64,000 bases of DNA from Haloarcula limicola. GTDB taxonomy: Archaea > Halobacteriota > Halobacteria > Halobacteriales > Haloarculaceae. A program made the translations under genes and the position numbers. The notes beneath the pieces are model-generated. The model was given only the letters and a program-made list of their open reading frames with translations, was not told the DNA's origin and searched no databases. Within the stretch, counting starts at the first letter, position 1. Every line of letters starts with the position of its first letter. The DNA is taken from contig NZ_WRXM01000002.1 in NCBI RefSeq assembly GCF_010119205.1, positions 1,046,982 through 1,110,981 of the forward strand, given 5' to 3'. Below are positions 33,810 to 62,615 of this stretch, piece by piece.

Positions 33810-34625
33810 TCAGTTCAGCACCGTCTCGGAGTCGTAGGAGCCCAGGTGGCGCACCCAACCGTTCTCCGCGAGCGCCTCGACGTCGGCGATGGCGTCCCGC
33901 GTGCGCTCCTCGTAGAGCCCGGCGGCGATGTCGACGTGGAAGACGTAGTCGCCCAGCCGCTCGCCGCTCGGTCGGGACTCGACGCGGGTGAGGTTGATGT
34001 CGCGGTCGGCGAACGGTTCGAGCAGTTCCAACAGCAGACCGGGGTAGTCGGCGTTCGGGTAGACGATGAAGGAGGACTTCCCGCCGGCTTCCGAGCGCTC
34101 GCTGACGGGCGCGACGGCCAGGAAGCGGGTCGCGTTCGAGGACTGGTCCTGGATGTCCTCGGCTAGCACTTTCAGTTCCGTGCCGTTGGTGGCGTTCTCG
34201 GGGTGACCGATGGCCGCGACGTTGGGGTCCTCGCGGGCGCGCTCGACGCCGCGAGCCGTCGAGGCGACCGCCTCCACGTCGACGCCGGGGTAGTGCTCGT
34301 CCAGCCAGCCCCGACACTGGGCCAGCGCCTGCGCGTGGCTGGTGACGAGATCGAAGCTATCTCCCTGCGCCAGCAGCGCGTGGCGGATGGGCGTGATGAT
34401 CTCCTTGATCACGGCGACGTCGTACTCGGCGAAGGCGTCCAGCGACTCCGTCACGGACCCCTCGATGCTGTTCTCGACCGGGACGACGCCGCGGTCGGCC
34501 TCCCCCTCGGCGACGGCCTCGACGATGGCGGTCATCGACTCGGCGAACTCGATGTCGCCGTCGTCGACCGCCTGCGCGGCCCGGTGGGAGTAGGTGCCCG
34601 CGGGCCCCAGCGTGATGGTCGTCAT
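33810..34625 (-). CDS. pheA: Prephenate dehydratase
   Basis: 271 residues. The catalytic part (1-180) contains LGPAGTYSHRAA, GVVPVENSIEGSV and the substrate motif NATRFLAV (TRF). The ACT domain (about 182-262) has PGLLLELLEPFADRDINLTRVESRPS; the ESRP motif binds Phe for feedback inhibition. It converts prephenate to phenylpyruvate in Phe synthesis. It is a stand-alone enzyme, without chorismate mutase. The start MTTITLGPAGTYS is chosen over one 24 bases upstream. Confidence 0.95.
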   Translation of the reverse strand: MTTITLGPAGTYSHRAAQAVDDGDIEFAESMTAIVEAVAEGEADRGVVPVENSIEGSVTESLDAFAEYDVAVIKEIITPIRHALLAQGDSFDLVTSHAQALAQCRGWLDEHYPGVDVEAVASTARGVERAREDPNVAAIGHPENATNGTELKVLAEDIQDQSSNATRFLAVAPVSERSEAGGKSSFIVYPNADYPGLLLELLEPFADRDINLTRVESRPSGERLGDYVFHVDIAAGLYEERTRDAIADVEALAENGWVRHLGSYDSETVLN

Positions 34626-34713
34626 ACCGTCGGGTAGTCCGCTCGTCATGAAAAGCGCCGCGGTCGGGTGTCACGACGCGACAGGGGTATGCCACTCGGG
34701 CACAATAGTCTGT

Positions 34714-55692: not shown

Positions 55693-55759
55693 GAGCAGTC
55701 GCCGCGACGCCTCGAAACGAACCCTTTTTGCGCCGACCGGGCCGATGGGTCGGTGTACG

Positions 55760-57487
55760 ATGTCCGACCGCGACACGCCGACAGAGGACGCATCGCCCGA
55801 CGAGGACCGCCGCCGGTCGGGGCGAGCGTGGCGCGGGTCGGACGCGCCGCTTCGCGCCGACGGGGGCGAAGCGAACGACGAGAGCCGACCCTCGTCGGAG
55901 CTTCGCTCTGACGGCGGTGAGGCGAGCGAAGCGAGGCGAGCTTCGTCAGCGCTCCGCGCTGACGGTGGCACGGAAACCGAGGGCGCGGACGACGTGCGAC
56001 TCGACCCGTGGGGTTCCTCGACGATCGCCGACTACCGGAAACTGTTCGAGCAGTTCGGCATCGAGGAGTTCGACGAGGTGCTGCCGGAGGTGCCCGACCC
56101 GCACTACCTGATGCGGCGGGGCGTCATCTTCGGCCACCGCGACTACCGACCGGTCGCAGAGGCCATGCGCGAGGGCGAGGAGTTCGCGTCGCTCTCTGGG
56201 TTCATGCCGACCGGAGATCCCCACATCGGCCACAAGATGGTGTTCGACGAGATAATCTGGCACCAGCAGCAGGGCGGCGACGCCTACGCGCTCATCGCCG
56301 ACCTCGAAGCCCACGCCGCTCGCGGGCTCTCCTGGGAGAAGATCGACGAGCACGCCCGCAGTTACGTCCTCTCCCTGCTCGCGCTCGGCTTCGACCCCGA
56401 GGAGGGCGAGCTGTACCGCCAATCCGATAACCGCGAGCTACAGGACCTGGCGTTCGAACTCGGGACGGAGGCGAACTTCTCGGAACTGCAGGCGATCTAC
56501 GACTTCGGCGGCGAGACGAACGTCTCCTACATGCAGTCGGTCGTCACGCAGATGGCCGACATCCTGTATCCGCAACTCGACGAGCCGAAGCCGACGGTCA
56601 TCCCCGTCGGCCCGGATCAGGACCCCCACATGCGACTGGCCCGGGACCTCGCGGCGCGGATGCGCTACTTCGGTGTCCGGGAGGCCTTCGCCAGTTTCGA
56701 GGCGGAAGCGGACGAGCGAGTCCTGCTCCGGCAGGCCTACGACGCCCGCGAGGAGTACGCCGAGGACGCCGACCTGCCCCGCTGTGGCGAGGCCGCCGAC
56801 TGGCTTCGAACCCGAGAGCCGGCCCCGCCCGACGCCCGCGAATCCACCGTCGAGAAGTTGGAGAACGCCGGGAAGGAACCGCTCCGTCCCCGGACCCGAA
56901 TCTTCGACCGACGGGCGACCGACGCGGCCTTCGAGGCGCTCATCGAGGCCGTTCCCGGGGAGAAGCGCGTCTACGACGAGCATATCGACGCCTTCGAGCT
57001 AGGCGAGGGAGACGCCGAGGAGCTCGCTCGCGAAGTGGAACTGGACCACGGCGGCCACGGCTTCCTCCCGCCGTCGTCGGTCTACCACCGCTTCATGACC
57101 GGGCTGACCGGCGGGAAGATGTCCTCGTCGGTTCCGGCCTCGCACATCTCCCTACTCGACGACCCCGAGGACGGTTACGACAAAGTGAAGTCGGCGACGA
57201 CGGGCGGGCGGACTACCGCCGAGGAACAGCGCGAGAAGGGCGGTAAAGCCGACGAGTGTCCCGTGTACGAACTGTACGCCTACCTGCTGTCGGGCGACGA
57301 CGACGAGTTCGCCAAGGAGGTCTACGAGGAGTGCGTCGGCGGCGAACGCCTCTGTGGGGGCTGTAAGGAGCAGGCCGCCGAGCTGATGGAGTCGTTCCTC
57401 GAAGACCACCAGGAGAAACGCGCCGAGTGGGAGGAGAAACTGGACGACCTCGACATCGACCTCGATTCCGACCGCAAGCGCGCGTAG
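55760..57487 (+). CDS. trpS: Tryptophanyl-tRNA synthetase
   Basis: 575 residues, class I. HIGH is H155IGH158 (GFMPTGDPHIGHKM); KMSKS reads GGKMSSS. The catalytic body begins about residue 82 (DPWGSSTIADYRKLFEQFG). Before it lies an unusual extension with repeats (LRADGGEAND, LRSDGGEASE, LRADGGTETE). The DNA of this part looks like the intergenic repeats elsewhere. Start ATG at 55760 is preferred over 55745, as a CCCTTTTTG element lies about 28 bases upstream. Confidence 0.94.
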   Translation: MSDRDTPTEDASPDEDRRRSGRAWRGSDAPLRADGGEANDESRPSSELRSDGGEASEARRASSALRADGGTETEGADDVRLDPWGSSTIADYRKLFEQFGIEEFDEVLPEVPDPHYLMRRGVIFGHRDYRPVAEAMREGEEFASLSGFMPTGDPHIGHKMVFDEIIWHQQQGGDAYALIADLEAHAARGLSWEKIDEHARSYVLSLLALGFDPEEGELYRQSDNRELQDLAFELGTEANFSELQAIYDFGGETNVSYMQSVVTQMADILYPQLDEPKPTVIPVGPDQDPHMRLARDLAARMRYFGVREAFASFEAEADERVLLRQAYDAREEYAEDADLPRCGEAADWLRTREPAPPDARESTVEKLENAGKEPLRPRTRIFDRRATDAAFEALIEAVPGEKRVYDEHIDAFELGEGDAEELAREVELDHGGHGFLPPSSVYHRFMTGLTGGKMSSSVPASHISLLDDPEDGYDKVKSATTGGRTTAEEQREKGGKADECPVYELYAYLLSGDDDEFAKEVYEECVGGERLCGGCKEQAAELMESFLEDHQEKRAEWEEKLDDLDIDLDSDRKRA

Positions 57488-57543
57488 CGCTCGGCGGTCG
57501 CTTCTCCGCCGCTCGATTTCATCGCTAATCGGTGACGCAACCC

Positions 57544-57550
57544 TTTTACT
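57544..57550 (+). promoter_or_regulatory. TATA box for the pheST leader transcript
   Basis: TTTTACT centred 26 bases before 57573, exactly the ATG of the leader ORF. The upstream GCAACCC may be the BRE. A weaker TATTTC at 57742 could start a second, leaderless pheS transcript. Confidence 0.6.
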
Positions 57551-57572
57551 GCCCAATCACGACCCTCCGCAC

Positions 57573-57653
57573 ATGGCATCCGAATCCCACCGCGCCGGCG
57601 TCGCCCGCCAGCCAGATCGCCGTCCGGGGTTCGGCTTCTTCTTCGCCGCCTGA
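57573..57653 (+). CDS. Phe-rich leader peptide upstream of pheST
   Basis: 26 codons then TGA. It starts MASESHRAGVARQPD and ends RPGFGFFFAA, with Phe at residues 20, 22, 23 and 24, all TTC. It has its own TATA box 26 bases upstream and no room for a leader RNA, so it should be leaderless. The order leader ORF, small hairpin (CCGAC/GTCGG at 57667-57679), pheS copies the layout of E. coli pheST attenuation, whose leader is also Phe-rich. No clear terminator (stem plus T-run) is seen, so any mechanism would differ. Not a track-length ORF and never a proven gene. Confidence 0.55.
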   Translation: MASESHRAGVARQPDRRPGFGFFFAA

Positions 57654-57666
57654 CGGTGCGTGGACT

Positions 57667-57679
57667 CCGACCGCGTCGG
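57667..57679 (+). promoter_or_regulatory. Hairpin between leader ORF and pheS
   Basis: CCGAC (57667-57671) pairs with GTCGG (57675-57679) around CGC, 14 bases after the leader stop. The Phe-codon region GGGGTTCGG (57626) can alternatively pair with CGAAACCGCCC near 57694, so rival folds exist. Confidence 0.35.
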
Positions 57680-57770
57680 GAGGCGCTGTCGGACGAAACC
57701 GCCCGGCAGGAAGTGAGAACCGTTAACTGAGCGACCCGCGGTATTTCCCGACAACGACCGAGACACCCGC

Positions 57771-59282
57771 ATGAAACGACCACAGGCACAGGTGGCCGTC
57801 CTACAGGCCGCCGACGCACAGGAGGACAGACGGATCGACGAGGTGGCCGAGGACGCCGACCTCAAACCCGAGGCGGCCACGCGAGCGGCCTTCGAACTCG
57901 AGGCCGACGGCCTCGTGACCGTCGCCGAGGAGACGCTCGAACACTACGACCTGACCGAGGAGGGCGAACGCTACGTCCGCGAGAGCCTGCCGGAACAGGA
58001 CCTCTACGCGGCCGCGCTGGACGCCGGGGCCGACGAGGAACCCGCGCAGATGGGACAGGTCATCGGCGCGTCCGGCCTCGAAGGCGGGGCCGTCGACATC
58101 GCGCTGTCGAACTACGCCCGCAAGGGGTACGGCGAGATCGACAGCGGCAAGATAACGGCCGATCCCGCGGTCGACGCGGGGGCCGACCCCGAGATGCACG
58201 CGCTTGAGGCCGTCGCCGACGGCCGCATCGAGGACGCCGACGCCGAGGCGCTCGACCAACTGGAACGCCGCGGCTTGCTCGAACTCAGCGAGGAGACGGT
58301 TCGGTCGGTGCGCCTGACCGACGGCGGCGTCACGGCGCTGATGGAGGGCGTCGAGGCCGCCGAGACGGTCGACCAGCTAACCCCGGAACTGCTCACCAGC
58401 GGCGAGTGGGAGGACGTGGAGTTCACCGAGTACAACGTCGAAGCCGACGCCGAGGACGTGAGCCACGGCAAGGAACACATCCTCCGTCAGACCGCCAATC
58501 GCGTGAAGGACACCCTCGTCGGCATGGGTTTTCAGGAGATGGAGGGGCCGCACGTCGACGCCCAGTTCTGGATCAACGACTGCCTGTTCATGCCCCAGGA
58601 CCACCCCGCCCGGACCCACTGGGACCAGTTCGCGCTCTCGCAACCCGACGAGATCAAGGAGCTACCCGAGGATCTCGTCGAGCGCGTTCGCTCGGCGCAC
58701 TTAGAGGGCGTCGGGCCCGACGGCGAGGGGTACCACTCGCCGTGGGAGGAAGACGTCGCCCGGGGGCTGGACCTCCGCGGACACACCACCTCGCTGTCGA
58801 TGCGGTACCTCTCGGGACACGAGGTCGGCGAGCTGGAACCGCCCAAGCGCTTCTTCAGCGTCGAGAAGGTGTACCGCAACGACACGCTCGATCCGACGCA
58901 CCTGCTTGAATTCTTCCAGATAGAGGGCTGGGTGATGGCCGAGGACCTCTCCGTGCGCGACCTGATGGGGACGTTCACGGAGTTCTACGAGCAGTTCGGC
59001 ATCACCGACCTGGAGTTCAAACCCCACTACAACCCCTACACCGAACCGAGCTTCGAGCTGTTCGGAACCCACCCCGAGACCGGCGAGGTCGTCGAGGTGG
59101 GGAACTCCGGCATCTTCCGCGACGAGGTGCTCGATCCGCTGGGCGTCGACTGCGACGTGATGGCGTGGGGGCTCTCGCTCGAACGACTACTCATGCTCAT
59201 GTACGGCTTCGAGGACATCCGCGACGTGCACGGGACGCTCTGTGACTTGGAACTGCTGCGGGAGACGGAGGTGATGCGCTGA
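57771..59282 (+). CDS. pheS: Phenylalanyl-tRNA synthetase alpha subunit
   Basis: 503 residues, archaeal/eukaryotic type. The N-terminal half contains winged-helix units (MKRPQAQVAVLQAADAQEDR, DLTEEGERYVRESLPEQ). The class II catalytic domain has motif 1 (HGKEHILRQTANRVKDTLVGMGF), motif 2 (FFSVEKVYRNDTLDPTHLLEFFQIEGWV) and motif 3 (VMAWGLSLERLLMLMYG). Phe specificity residues lie in the FFQIEG region. Its TGA overlaps the ATG of pheT by one base, so the subunits are coupled. Upstream lies the leader ORF. Confidence 0.97.
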   Translation: MKRPQAQVAVLQAADAQEDRRIDEVAEDADLKPEAATRAAFELEADGLVTVAEETLEHYDLTEEGERYVRESLPEQDLYAAALDAGADEEPAQMGQVIGASGLEGGAVDIALSNYARKGYGEIDSGKITADPAVDAGADPEMHALEAVADGRIEDADAEALDQLERRGLLELSEETVRSVRLTDGGVTALMEGVEAAETVDQLTPELLTSGEWEDVEFTEYNVEADAEDVSHGKEHILRQTANRVKDTLVGMGFQEMEGPHVDAQFWINDCLFMPQDHPARTHWDQFALSQPDEIKELPEDLVERVRSAHLEGVGPDGEGYHSPWEEDVARGLDLRGHTTSLSMRYLSGHEVGELEPPKRFFSVEKVYRNDTLDPTHLLEFFQIEGWVMAEDLSVRDLMGTFTEFYEQFGITDLEFKPHYNPYTEPSFELFGTHPETGEVVEVGNSGIFRDEVLDPLGVDCDVMAWGLSLERLLMLMYGFEDIRDVHGTLCDLELLRETEVMR

Positions 59283-61018
59283 TGCCCGTCGTCGACGTCG
59301 ACCCCGACGAACTGCGTTACCTGACCGGTCACGACGAGAAAGACGACGACGAACTCAAGTCCGACCTCTTCGACCTCGGCCTGGAGTTCGAGGGCTGGAC
59401 CGAGGACGACGAGTTCCAACTGGAGTTCGCCCCCGACCGCCTCGATCGCCTCTCGGTCGAGGGCGTCGCCCGCTCGCTTCGCTACCACTACGGCGACGAC
59501 CGGGGCGTCTACGTCCCGAGCACGAACAGCGCCGAGTGGACGATCGAAGTCGAGGACCAACCCGCGGGTCGCCCCTACGTCACCGGCGCTATCGTCCGGG
59601 GCCTCGACATGGACGAGGACGCGCTGGAGTCGCTGATCCAACTGCAGGAGAAACTCCACGCGACGATGGGCCGCAAGCGCGCGAAAGGCGCTATCGGCGT
59701 CCACGACCTCACCATGATGAAGGGAGACGCCGCGACGGAGGGAACTGGCAAATCCATCACCTACACGAGCGTCGATCCCGACGAGGCGACGTTCGTGCCG
59801 CTCGACGCCGACGCGGAGATGACGCCCAACGAGGTCGTCGCCGACCACGAGACCGGACGGGCTTACGGCGACCTCGTCGCGGGCTTCGACCGCGTGCCCG
59901 CCATCTTCGACTCCATCGGCCTGTTCTCGTTCCCGCCGGTCATCAACGGCCGCCGGACAGAGGTGACCGAGGGCTCCCGAGACCTCTTCATCGAGATGAC
60001 CGGGACCGACCAGTGGACCATCGACCACATGTGCAACATCGTCTGCTACGCGCTCGAAGCGCGCGGCGGCAAGGTCGAACGTGTCGAGGTCGAGTACGCC
60101 GACAACGCACCCGGCGAGTACGCCGGCCGGACGCTCGAACGGCCCGACTTCGAGGTCAGGTCGAAGACGGTCACGCTAGAGCGGATTCGCAACGTCCTCG
60201 GCGTCGACCTGGACGCCCGTGAAGTAATCGACTACGCCGAGCGCGCGGGGCTGGACGCGACGCGGACCGAGACCGACGACGGGGCGGTCGCCTTCGAAGT
60301 GGAGGTCCCGCCCTACCGCGTCGACGTCATTCACCCGCTGGACCTCATCGACGACATCGGCCGCGCGCTGGGGTTCAACACGCTCGAACCCACGTACCCC
60401 GACGTCTCGACGGTCGGCGGCCGCCACGAGCGCTCTCGACTGGAGGACGCGGCCCGCGATACGCTGGTCGGGCTGGGCTTCGAGGACCTGCTGAACTTCC
60501 ACATGACCAACGAGGCGGAGAACTTCCGTAGAATGGGCCTCACCGCGGACGACGACGCCGTCGGCGCGGCCGACCCGGTGACGATTCAGGAACCCTACAG
60601 CGAGGACTACACCGTCCTCCGAACCTGGGCGCTCCCGTCGCTGCTGATGGTCTTAGAGAACAACACGCACCGGCGCTACCCGCAGGACCTCGCGGAGATC
60701 GGCCTCGCCGCCGGTCTGGACGACTCGCAGAACACCGGCGTCGCCGAGCACCGAACCGTCGCGGGCGCGCTCGCGCGGACCGACGCCTCCTACGAGGACG
60801 CGAAGGCCCGCCTGCAGGCCATCGCCGAGGCGTTCGATAAAGACCTCCGGACGCCGCCGACGACCCACCCGTCGTTCATCGACGGCCGGGCCGCCGACGT
60901 GGTGTTAGACGGCGAGCCCGTCGGTGTTGTGGGTGAGGTCCACCCGAAGGTCCTCGTCGAACACGACTTGGAGCTGCCGGTGGCAGCCTTCGAATTCCGA
61001 CTGGACGGGCTAGAATAG
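59282..61018 (+). CDS. pheT: Phenylalanyl-tRNA synthetase beta subunit
   Basis: 578 residues, the archaeal short form. The B3/B4 editing domain (about 90-330) has GRKRAKGAIGVHDLTMM and FSFPPVINGRRTEVTEGSRDLFIEMTGTD. A B5 domain with YRVDVIHPLDLIDDIGRALGF and a catalytic-like domain (about 390-578) follow. With PheS it forms the alpha2-beta2 enzyme; editing removes mischarged Tyr. It starts at the last base of the pheS stop codon. Confidence 0.97.
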   Translation: MPVVDVDPDELRYLTGHDEKDDDELKSDLFDLGLEFEGWTEDDEFQLEFAPDRLDRLSVEGVARSLRYHYGDDRGVYVPSTNSAEWTIEVEDQPAGRPYVTGAIVRGLDMDEDALESLIQLQEKLHATMGRKRAKGAIGVHDLTMMKGDAATEGTGKSITYTSVDPDEATFVPLDADAEMTPNEVVADHETGRAYGDLVAGFDRVPAIFDSIGLFSFPPVINGRRTEVTEGSRDLFIEMTGTDQWTIDHMCNIVCYALEARGGKVERVEVEYADNAPGEYAGRTLERPDFEVRSKTVTLERIRNVLGVDLDAREVIDYAERAGLDATRTETDDGAVAFEVEVPPYRVDVIHPLDLIDDIGRALGFNTLEPTYPDVSTVGGRHERSRLEDAARDTLVGLGFEDLLNFHMTNEAENFRRMGLTADDDAVGAADPVTIQEPYSEDYTVLRTWALPSLLMVLENNTHRRYPQDLAEIGLAAGLDDSQNTGVAEHRTVAGALARTDASYEDAKARLQAIAEAFDKDLRTPPTTHPSFIDGRAADVVLDGEPVGVVGEVHPKVLVEHDLELPVAAFEFRLDGLE

Positions 61019-61562: not shown

Positions 61563-62615
61563 TTACAGGTCAGCGCCGACCGCCGCTTCGACGCTGTCGA
61601 AGCCGTCCGCTTCGAGCAAGTCGAGTAGCCCCTCGTTGATGTCCCGGGCGATAGACGGCCCGCGGTAGACGAGACCGGTGTACAACTGGACGAGCGAGGC
61701 CCCGGCCCGAATCTTTCGATACGCGCCCTCGGCCGTCGAGACACCGCCGACGCCGACGACCGGAACGTCGACGCGTTCGGCGACGAACCGAACCATCTCC
61801 GTCGAACGCCCTTCGATCGGTTTCCCCGAGAGGCCGCCCCGCTCGCTCGCGTTCGGCGAGCGCAGACTGGTCGGGCGCTCGGTCGAGGTGTTGGTCGCGA
61901 CGACGCCGTCGAGACCGAGTTCGGTCACCAGATCAAGCGTGTCCTCGACGGCGGGTTCGGGGAGGTCCGGCGAGAGCTTCACGAGCAGCGGCGACGCGCC
62001 GGCGTCCTGCAGTTCCTCGAAGATAGCCGTCATCGCCTCGCGGTTCTGGAGTTCCTCGAACCCCTGTGAGTTCGGGCAGGAGACGTTCACGACGAAGAAG
62101 TCGCCGCCTGCGGCGACCCGTTCGTACGTGTAGCGGTAGTCCGCCGGCGCGTCGTCGGTGCCGACGTGCTCGCTCTTGGCGATGTTGACGCCGATCGGAA
62201 ACGGGGCGTCCGTCGCTGCCAGTCGCTCGCCGACGACGTCGGCACCGTCGTTGTTCAGTCCCATCCGGTTGATGATCCCCTCGTCTTCGCGCAGGCGGAA
62301 CATCCGCGGGCGAGCGTTGCCGGTCTGAGGTTCTGCGGTCACGCCGCCGACTTCCGCGAAGCCGAAACCCAGCGAGGCCAGCATCGTCGGGACGGTCGCG
62401 TTCTTATCGAACCCGGCGGCGACGCCGACCGGATTAGCGAACGACTGGCCGAACGCCTCGACGGTGAGGCTGTCGTCCGTAACTACGTACCGGTCGGCGA
62501 CGGCGTCAGCGACCGGCGTTCCGGCCGTCGCTTCCAACAACGTATGCACGGCGTTATTGGCCGTCTCCGCCGGTAGCGTGAACAGTACCGGTCTGGCGAT
62601 GTCGTAGAGTCTCAT
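61563..62615 (-). CDS. pyrD: Dihydroorotate dehydrogenase (class 2-like)
   Basis: 350 residues. The N-terminal helical extension (MRLYDIARPVLFTLPAETAN) is that of class 2, membrane-associated, quinone-using enzymes. The FMN barrel has GVAAGFDKNA and GGVTAEPQTGN, NRMGLNNDG, and ends in GVGGVSTAEGAYRKIRAGASLVQLYTGLVY. The base in the NxSxPN motif is Cys180 (NVSCPN), as in class 1, where class 2 normally has Ser. It makes orotate in pyrimidine synthesis. Upstream of RDD gene. Confidence 0.94.
   Translation of the reverse strand: MRLYDIARPVLFTLPAETANNAVHTLLEATAGTPVADAVADRYVVTDDSLTVEAFGQSFANPVGVAAGFDKNATVPTMLASLGFGFAEVGGVTAEPQTGNARPRMFRLREDEGIINRMGLNNDGADVVGERLAATDAPFPIGVNIAKSEHVGTDDAPADYRYTYERVAAGGDFFVVNVSCPNSQGFEELQNREAMTAIFEELQDAGASPLLVKLSPDLPEPAVEDTLDLVTELGLDGVVATNTSTERPTSLRSPNASERGGLSGKPIEGRSTEMVRFVAERVDVPVVGVGGVSTAEGAYRKIRAGASLVQLYTGLVYRGPSIARDINEGLLDLLEADGFDSVEAAVGADL

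Follow-up and report, generated by a model that had tools for sequence, protein, structure and literature searches.

A conserved phenylalanine-rich leader with covarying RNA structure ahead of pheST in Halobacteria, a probable sensor of charged tRNA-Phe

A short open reading frame (ORF) that ends in phenylalanine codons was found ahead of pheS in Haloarcula limicola and in the majority of the Halobacteria compared, together with a promoter set at a fixed distance from its start codon and two covarying RNA structures. Based on this comparison of genomes, it is highly probable that the leader is a cis element of pheST that senses the cognate tRNA. We place the fuller reading, in which a translating ribosome would sense charged tRNA-Phe and thereby control pheST, at roughly 80%. 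As the conserved Phe-ending ORF is accompanied by RNA folds that match it, haloarchaea probably sense the supply of phenylalanine by means of the translating ribosome. The preliminary description of this DNA had proposed a Phe-rich leader that reports the supply of Phe-tRNA. This idea is supported by the conservation of the ORF and its Phe codons, by the two covarying structures and by a parallel family of tryptophan leaders, whereas the downstream pairing that had been suggested for the Phe codons was not.

Locus and conservation of the leader

The window, i.e., the whole stretch of 64,000 nucleotides that was analysed, contains the leader ORF between the tryptophanyl-tRNA synthetase gene and the pheS-pheT pair (Table 1). 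The encoded PheS shares 96% identity with the Haloarcula amylovorans protein, and the start of pheT overlaps the end of pheS. A quinone-dependent dihydroorotate dehydrogenase gene adjoins pheT (61563-62615, minus strand). The preliminary description was correct in reading the ORF as 26 codons with Phe at residues 20, 22, 23 and 24, and in naming pheA near 33810, which was identified as a prephenate dehydratase gene (33810-34649, minus strand). No comparable Phe leader was found before or near pheA.

Table 1. Features annotated at the pheST leader and its surroundings, numbered within the window.
Feature	Positions	Strand	Basis
Tryptophanyl-tRNA synthetase gene (upstream of the leader ORF and pheS-pheT)	55745-57487		
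Promoter P1 (predicted): BRE CGCAA 57536-57540, TATA-like TTTTACT 57544-57550	57536-57550	+	Sequence; positional conservation in 112 leaders; spacing
Leader ORF MASESHRAGVARQPDRRPGFGFFFAA with stop TGA	57573-57653	+	Sequence; counterparts across Halobacteria
Helix A, 5' arm CCGAATCCC (Ser-Glu-Ser codons)	57580-57588	+	9-bp pairing with 57626-57634; covariation
Helix A, 3' arm GGGGTTCGG (Pro-Gly-Phe-Gly codons)	57626-57634	+	Pairing with 57580-57588; covariation
Phe control codons: residue 20 (57630-57632, within helix A), residues 22-24 (57636-57644)	57630-57644	+	Phe kept, TTT/TTC vary
Hairpin 3: TGGAC 57661-57665; inner stem 57666-57671 with 57688-57693; CGAAA 57694-57698	57661-57698	+	Conservation; covariation
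Probable promoter P2, pheS-proximal: BRE GAACC, TATA-like TTAACTGA 57723-57730, predicted start ACAAC 57751-57755	57717-57755	+	Conservation; spacing
pheS, phenylalanyl-tRNA synthetase alpha subunit (putatively regulated gene)	57771-59282	+	NCBIfam NF003210, 590.8 bits
pheT, phenylalanyl-tRNA synthetase beta subunit	59282-61018	+	NCBIfam TIGR00471, 420.5 bits

For the comparison, we identified pheS in 145 genomes of Halobacteria representing 58 genera and inspected the upstream DNA for a short ORF with at least three Phe within its last 14 residues. Such a counterpart occurs in 112 of the 145 genomes, for example MAPESHRAGVARQLSDSPGFGFFFTA, MAPESHETGVGDQLRRPRSGFGFFFAR and MTTEPVSDGVCVTREPTTDGFGFFFLTA. 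On the reverse strand of the same regions none of the 145 has one, and shuffled sequences yielded two in 1450. A second collection gave the leader at 62 of 80 named loci, including those of Haloarcula, Natrinema, Natrialba, Halorussus and Haloferax larsenii. Both ends of the peptide are conserved, with a start of the form M-A-S/P-E-S/P and C-terminal codons that are GFGFFF-like, and the middle residues are free to vary. The check that had been suggested, a search for Phe-ending short ORFs before pheS in other Halobacteria, therefore came out as predicted, since the ORF and its number of Phe residues are kept while other residues change.

An intact leader is absent from 33 of the 145 genomes, some of which show visible decay, so the leader is dispensable. 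In several loci (L038, L041, L046, L131-L134, L136 and L137) the start codon was lost, the frame was lost or the leader was deleted, with the pheS-proximal element being retained. Among about 31 regions upstream of pheS in other classes of the phylum, the only such ORF was one attributable to chance. A contig labelled Candidatus Pacearchaeota (L309) was observed to carry a haloarchaeal pheS together with the Phe leader, and this label is probably a binning error.

The usage of Phe codons differs between the two parts of the leader. Outside helix A, TTT accounts for 77 of 292 Phe codons (26%), against 2 of 114 (2%) in the opening part of pheS from these genomes. The Phe codon that lies within helix A is always TTC (108 of 108). 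This pattern points to selection for the amino acid where codons lie outside the helix, and for the nucleotide where they lie within it.

Pairing of the leader start with the control codons

The first of the two structures, helix A, joins the early codons of the leader (CCGAATCC or CCGAACCC) to the Gly-Phe-Gly codons (GGATTCGG or GGGTTCGG). Two-sided changes were found at eight of its nine pairs in a gapless alignment of 50 sequences, and none of 500 shuffles reached the observed values. A compensatory variant, GGACCC/GGGTCC, occurs in four genomes that carry Ser in place of the first Phe, and further compensatory variants are GACCCC/GGGGTC, GAACGCCC/GGGCGTTC and CTCGAACGCG/CGCGTTCGAG. The mean energy of the duplex is -20.8 kcal/mol in native sequences compared to -15.2 kcal/mol after shuffling of synonymous codons, with 99% of the natives being better. 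The preliminary description had assigned the Phe codons a rival partner further down. Only weak matches with little covariation were found there, and the covarying partner is located on the upstream side, among the first codons of the ORF.

Hairpin behind the stop codon

The small hairpin that had been noted behind the ORF is present in the source sequence and conserved across the leaders. This hairpin 3 contains an internal loop in which (C/T)GGA(N) lies opposite CGAA(A), with the GGA and GAA forming a tandem. An outer stem flanks the inner part and is weak or bulged in the source genus. Two-sided changes were observed at all 14 stem pairs. A motif score of at least 9 was reached by 79% of the native sequences and by 0.2% of the shuffled ones, and the invariance of GGA/GAA and the percentage of pairing are partly built in, because the search demanded GGA and GAA at the best-pairing position. 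For the whole leader structure, 86.7% of cells are paired compared to 68.2% in shuffled sequences and covariation is 0.492 compared to 0.169 (0 of 500 shuffles), the positions of helix A and the hairpin having been chosen by maximising pairing, which biases the pair percentages upwards and the two-sided changes less so. The hairpin mostly starts 4-14 nt past the leader stop, a distance that a ribosome terminating at this stop would be expected to cover.

Other structures were searched for in the same regions. An alternative hairpin that uses the 3' arm of hairpin 3 (ACCG..CGGU) has a native energy barely better than that of shuffled sequences, and a hairpin at the stop codon occurs in some lineages only and is weak overall. 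Comparison of fold energies with shuffles supported no mutually exclusive downstream structure or terminator-antiterminator pair. The GGA/GAA loop is presumably not a K-turn, as by inspection it does not fit the k-turn consensus. No T-box or other Rfam family was found at the leader, the Rfam search giving a chance SNORD49 match far below the gathering score.

Promoters P1 and P2

A TATA box had been described ahead of the leader ATG. Its TTTT (57544-57547) occupies positions -29 to -26 and is near-invariant when the 112 leaders are aligned on the ATG (T in 87-99% at these positions), and a TATA box is correctly placed in 110 of the 112. The BRE-like AA (57539-57540) at -34/-33 is found in 90% of the leaders, and the C at -37 is also nearly invariant. 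The distance from AA to ATG is 34 in 82 of the 97 leaders that could be parsed. With this spacing of BRE and TATA, transcription from P1 should start at the leader ATG, and the mRNA would therefore be leaderless.

A second element with the consensus CGGAACCG(C/T)TAACTGAC lies directly before pheS in 126 of the 145 genomes, 96 of the 112 with a leader and 30 of the 33 without one. No other zero-mismatch copy of it was found in the genome. In 84 cases its AA and CAA are 34 nt apart, which equals the AA-to-ATG spacing of P1, and we read the element as a probable second promoter, P2. Lineages without a leader would depend on P2, and control through P1 might be made partial by it. The element is unusually conserved, also in genomes that lack the leader, and it may bind a regulator as well.

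Published data from Haloferax volcanii, whose pheS is HVO_2948, bear on both promoters. In differential RNA-seq, pheS had a long 5'-UTR that contains a 26-aa uORF, and no further transcription start was recorded at the gene itself, so that P2 did not register as one in this species (PMC4983044). The uORF fits related leaders (L052/L064 and L302 of H. larsenii) by position and length, and it is probably the same element as the Phe leader. A 23-aa uORF was reported as well upstream of HVO_A0127, a tryptophan--tRNA ligase gene (PMC4983044). Babski et al. 2016 class these uORFs as small proteins, using neither the term 'leader peptide' nor 'attenuation' and giving no mechanism (PMC4983044).

Tryptophan leaders

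Trp-rich leaderless leaders, e.g., MQSAPTGWRWRAPGADSLAAAA and MSASDGWRWRWQFPEADSLASPAAR, were found in other haloarchaea ahead of a divergent second TrpRS gene and, within one genus of the source organism's family, ahead of the primary trpS (trpS upstream regions L196-L215 and L223-L244). A strict pattern for such leaders matches 78 of 242 genomes, with most, not all, of the matches being true leaders. The amino acid of the leader thus matches the synthetase in both families, Phe before pheST and Trp before trpS. The start codons of the Trp leaders (CCGCTCCC) pair with GGGAGCGG just past the Trp codons and compensatory variants exist; this helix has an energy of -22.4 kcal/mol compared to about -11 kcal/mol in shuffled sequences and is better in 32 of 32 cases. 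An antiterminator pairing between regions 2 and 3 was no better than shuffles. Pyrimidine- and T-rich tracts follow the Trp leaders, some of them with T5C. Nine bases past the Trp codons (GCGGACAGT, encoding Ala-Asp-Ser) are near-invariant beyond what the helix needs in L197, L206, L213 and most other Trp leaders.

No Trp leader was found in the genome of Haloarcula limicola itself. Leaders were also sought before SNF transporter genes, before trpC (IGPS) and before this genome's own synthetase genes of the PF00133, PF00587 and PF00579 families, and none was convincing.

Proposed mechanism and alternative explanations

From these structures we infer stalling, a switch with its sign, and an output. 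P1 would yield a leaderless mRNA that opens directly with the ATG of the leader ORF, and a ribosome would translate the leader. When charged tRNA-Phe is scarce, the ribosome would stall at the Phe codons and cover the Gly-Phe-Gly (GFG) arm, which would block helix A and leave the hairpin past the stop free to fold, and expression of pheST would proceed. When tRNA-Phe is plentiful, the ribosome would reach the stop codon and cover the 5' arm of the hairpin, releasing the GFG arm, and helix A would then form across the beginning of the leaderless mRNA so that translation of the leader ceases. The untranslated transcript might then be terminated or degraded before pheS, a final step that we put forward tentatively, and basal pheST would be supplied by P2. 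Ribosome footprints would cover the GFG arm and the hairpin in opposite ways when the ribosome is stalled at FFF and when it stands at the stop codon, and these opposite states fit the requirement of an attenuator. The stalled state was assigned as the ON state on physiological grounds, since more PheRS is called for when Phe-tRNA is scarce.

Concerning the output, classical transcription attenuation, in which the ribosome would select RNA structures that terminate or spare RNA polymerase in the leader, is conceivable, with the odds somewhat against it. Such an output would work in the same way as in E. coli pheST and trp. One tested hairpin and a T5C stretch terminate transcription in H. volcanii (59% and 95%, respectively; PMC7237163), and the tracts behind the Trp leaders include T5C. 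In contrast, the Phe leader lacks a T stretch. The preliminary description had seen no T-rich terminator before pheS, and this was borne out in the leader-pheS intervals, where no intrinsic terminator consisting of a hairpin and a T tract was found and an 8-nt window holds at most five T, mostly two to three. A terminator-antiterminator pair likewise lacks support, with the pairing of Trp regions 2 and 3 lying at the level of shuffles.

Control at the level of translation, where translation of the leader would alter the access of ribosomes to the start of pheS, is an unlikely output. The leader stop lies about 35 nt from pheS in two genomes (L127 and L130), which lack the usual P2 element and in which direct coupling of leader and pheS is possible. 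The other leaders (108 leaders) end 75-231 nt from pheS, whereas translational coupling in H. volcanii weakens once the gap exceeds about 30 nt (PMC12548453), and simple termination-reinitiation is therefore improbable. In addition, no conserved pairing between the leader and the pheS start was found.

It is very improbable that the ORF encodes a functional microprotein with the RNA pairing being incidental. The conserved start and end of the peptide and its predicted translation would agree with this, but the middle of the peptide varies freely and the conserved N-terminal residues are those of the codons that pair in helix A, changing jointly with the partner codons. Moreover, the Trp version shares the layout and differs in sequence. 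Finally, a Phe-rich frame arising by chance in GC-rich spacer DNA, which the very short length of the ORF might suggest, is hardly credible given its presence in 112 of 145 genomes on the forward strand compared to the near absence in the reverse-strand and shuffled controls, and the fixed promoter spacing.

Returning to the ribosome-based sensor of charged tRNA-Phe, we lean towards a wider generalization, namely that leader peptides in Halobacteria would sense charged tRNA for at least the Phe and Trp synthetases, through a helix between the leaderless start and the control codons that opens or shuts the leader. If true, archaea sense charged tRNA by ribosome stalling, as represented by a class-wide Phe leader and its Trp counterpart. 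These leaders would make it possible to test cleanly in vivo how transcription and translation are coupled and how ribosomes affect archaeal termination, in the genetically tractable Haloferax and Haloarcula.

Comparison with known systems

Leader-peptide attenuation is a textbook form of bacterial control that depends on the coupling of transcription and translation, and is known from E. coli pheST (pheM) and from bacterial trp and pheA. We found no report of it for archaea in the open-access literature, and the haloarchaeal leaders, if the proposed reading is true, would form a family of this kind without precedent in the domain as far as we could find. The closest known case for the Phe leader is the attenuation of E. 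coli pheST. In both, a short ORF ends in codons cognate to the synthetase gene that follows, an arrangement that is repeated here for Trp, and the control codons take part in RNA pairing. Unlike in E. coli, the haloarchaeal leader starts leaderless as predicted from P1, helix A joins the start of the ORF to the control codons, and the locus has a GGA/GAA hairpin past the stop and a probable second promoter before pheS. The Phe leader also lacks the terminator formed by a hairpin and a T tract; we looked for this feature and did not find it, and for this reason the leader is not filed under the attenuators of the E. coli pheST and trp type. The T-boxes of Bacteria are similar in that a synthetase gene is controlled by tRNA charging through a leader RNA, but they differ by binding the tRNA directly, without a leader peptide.
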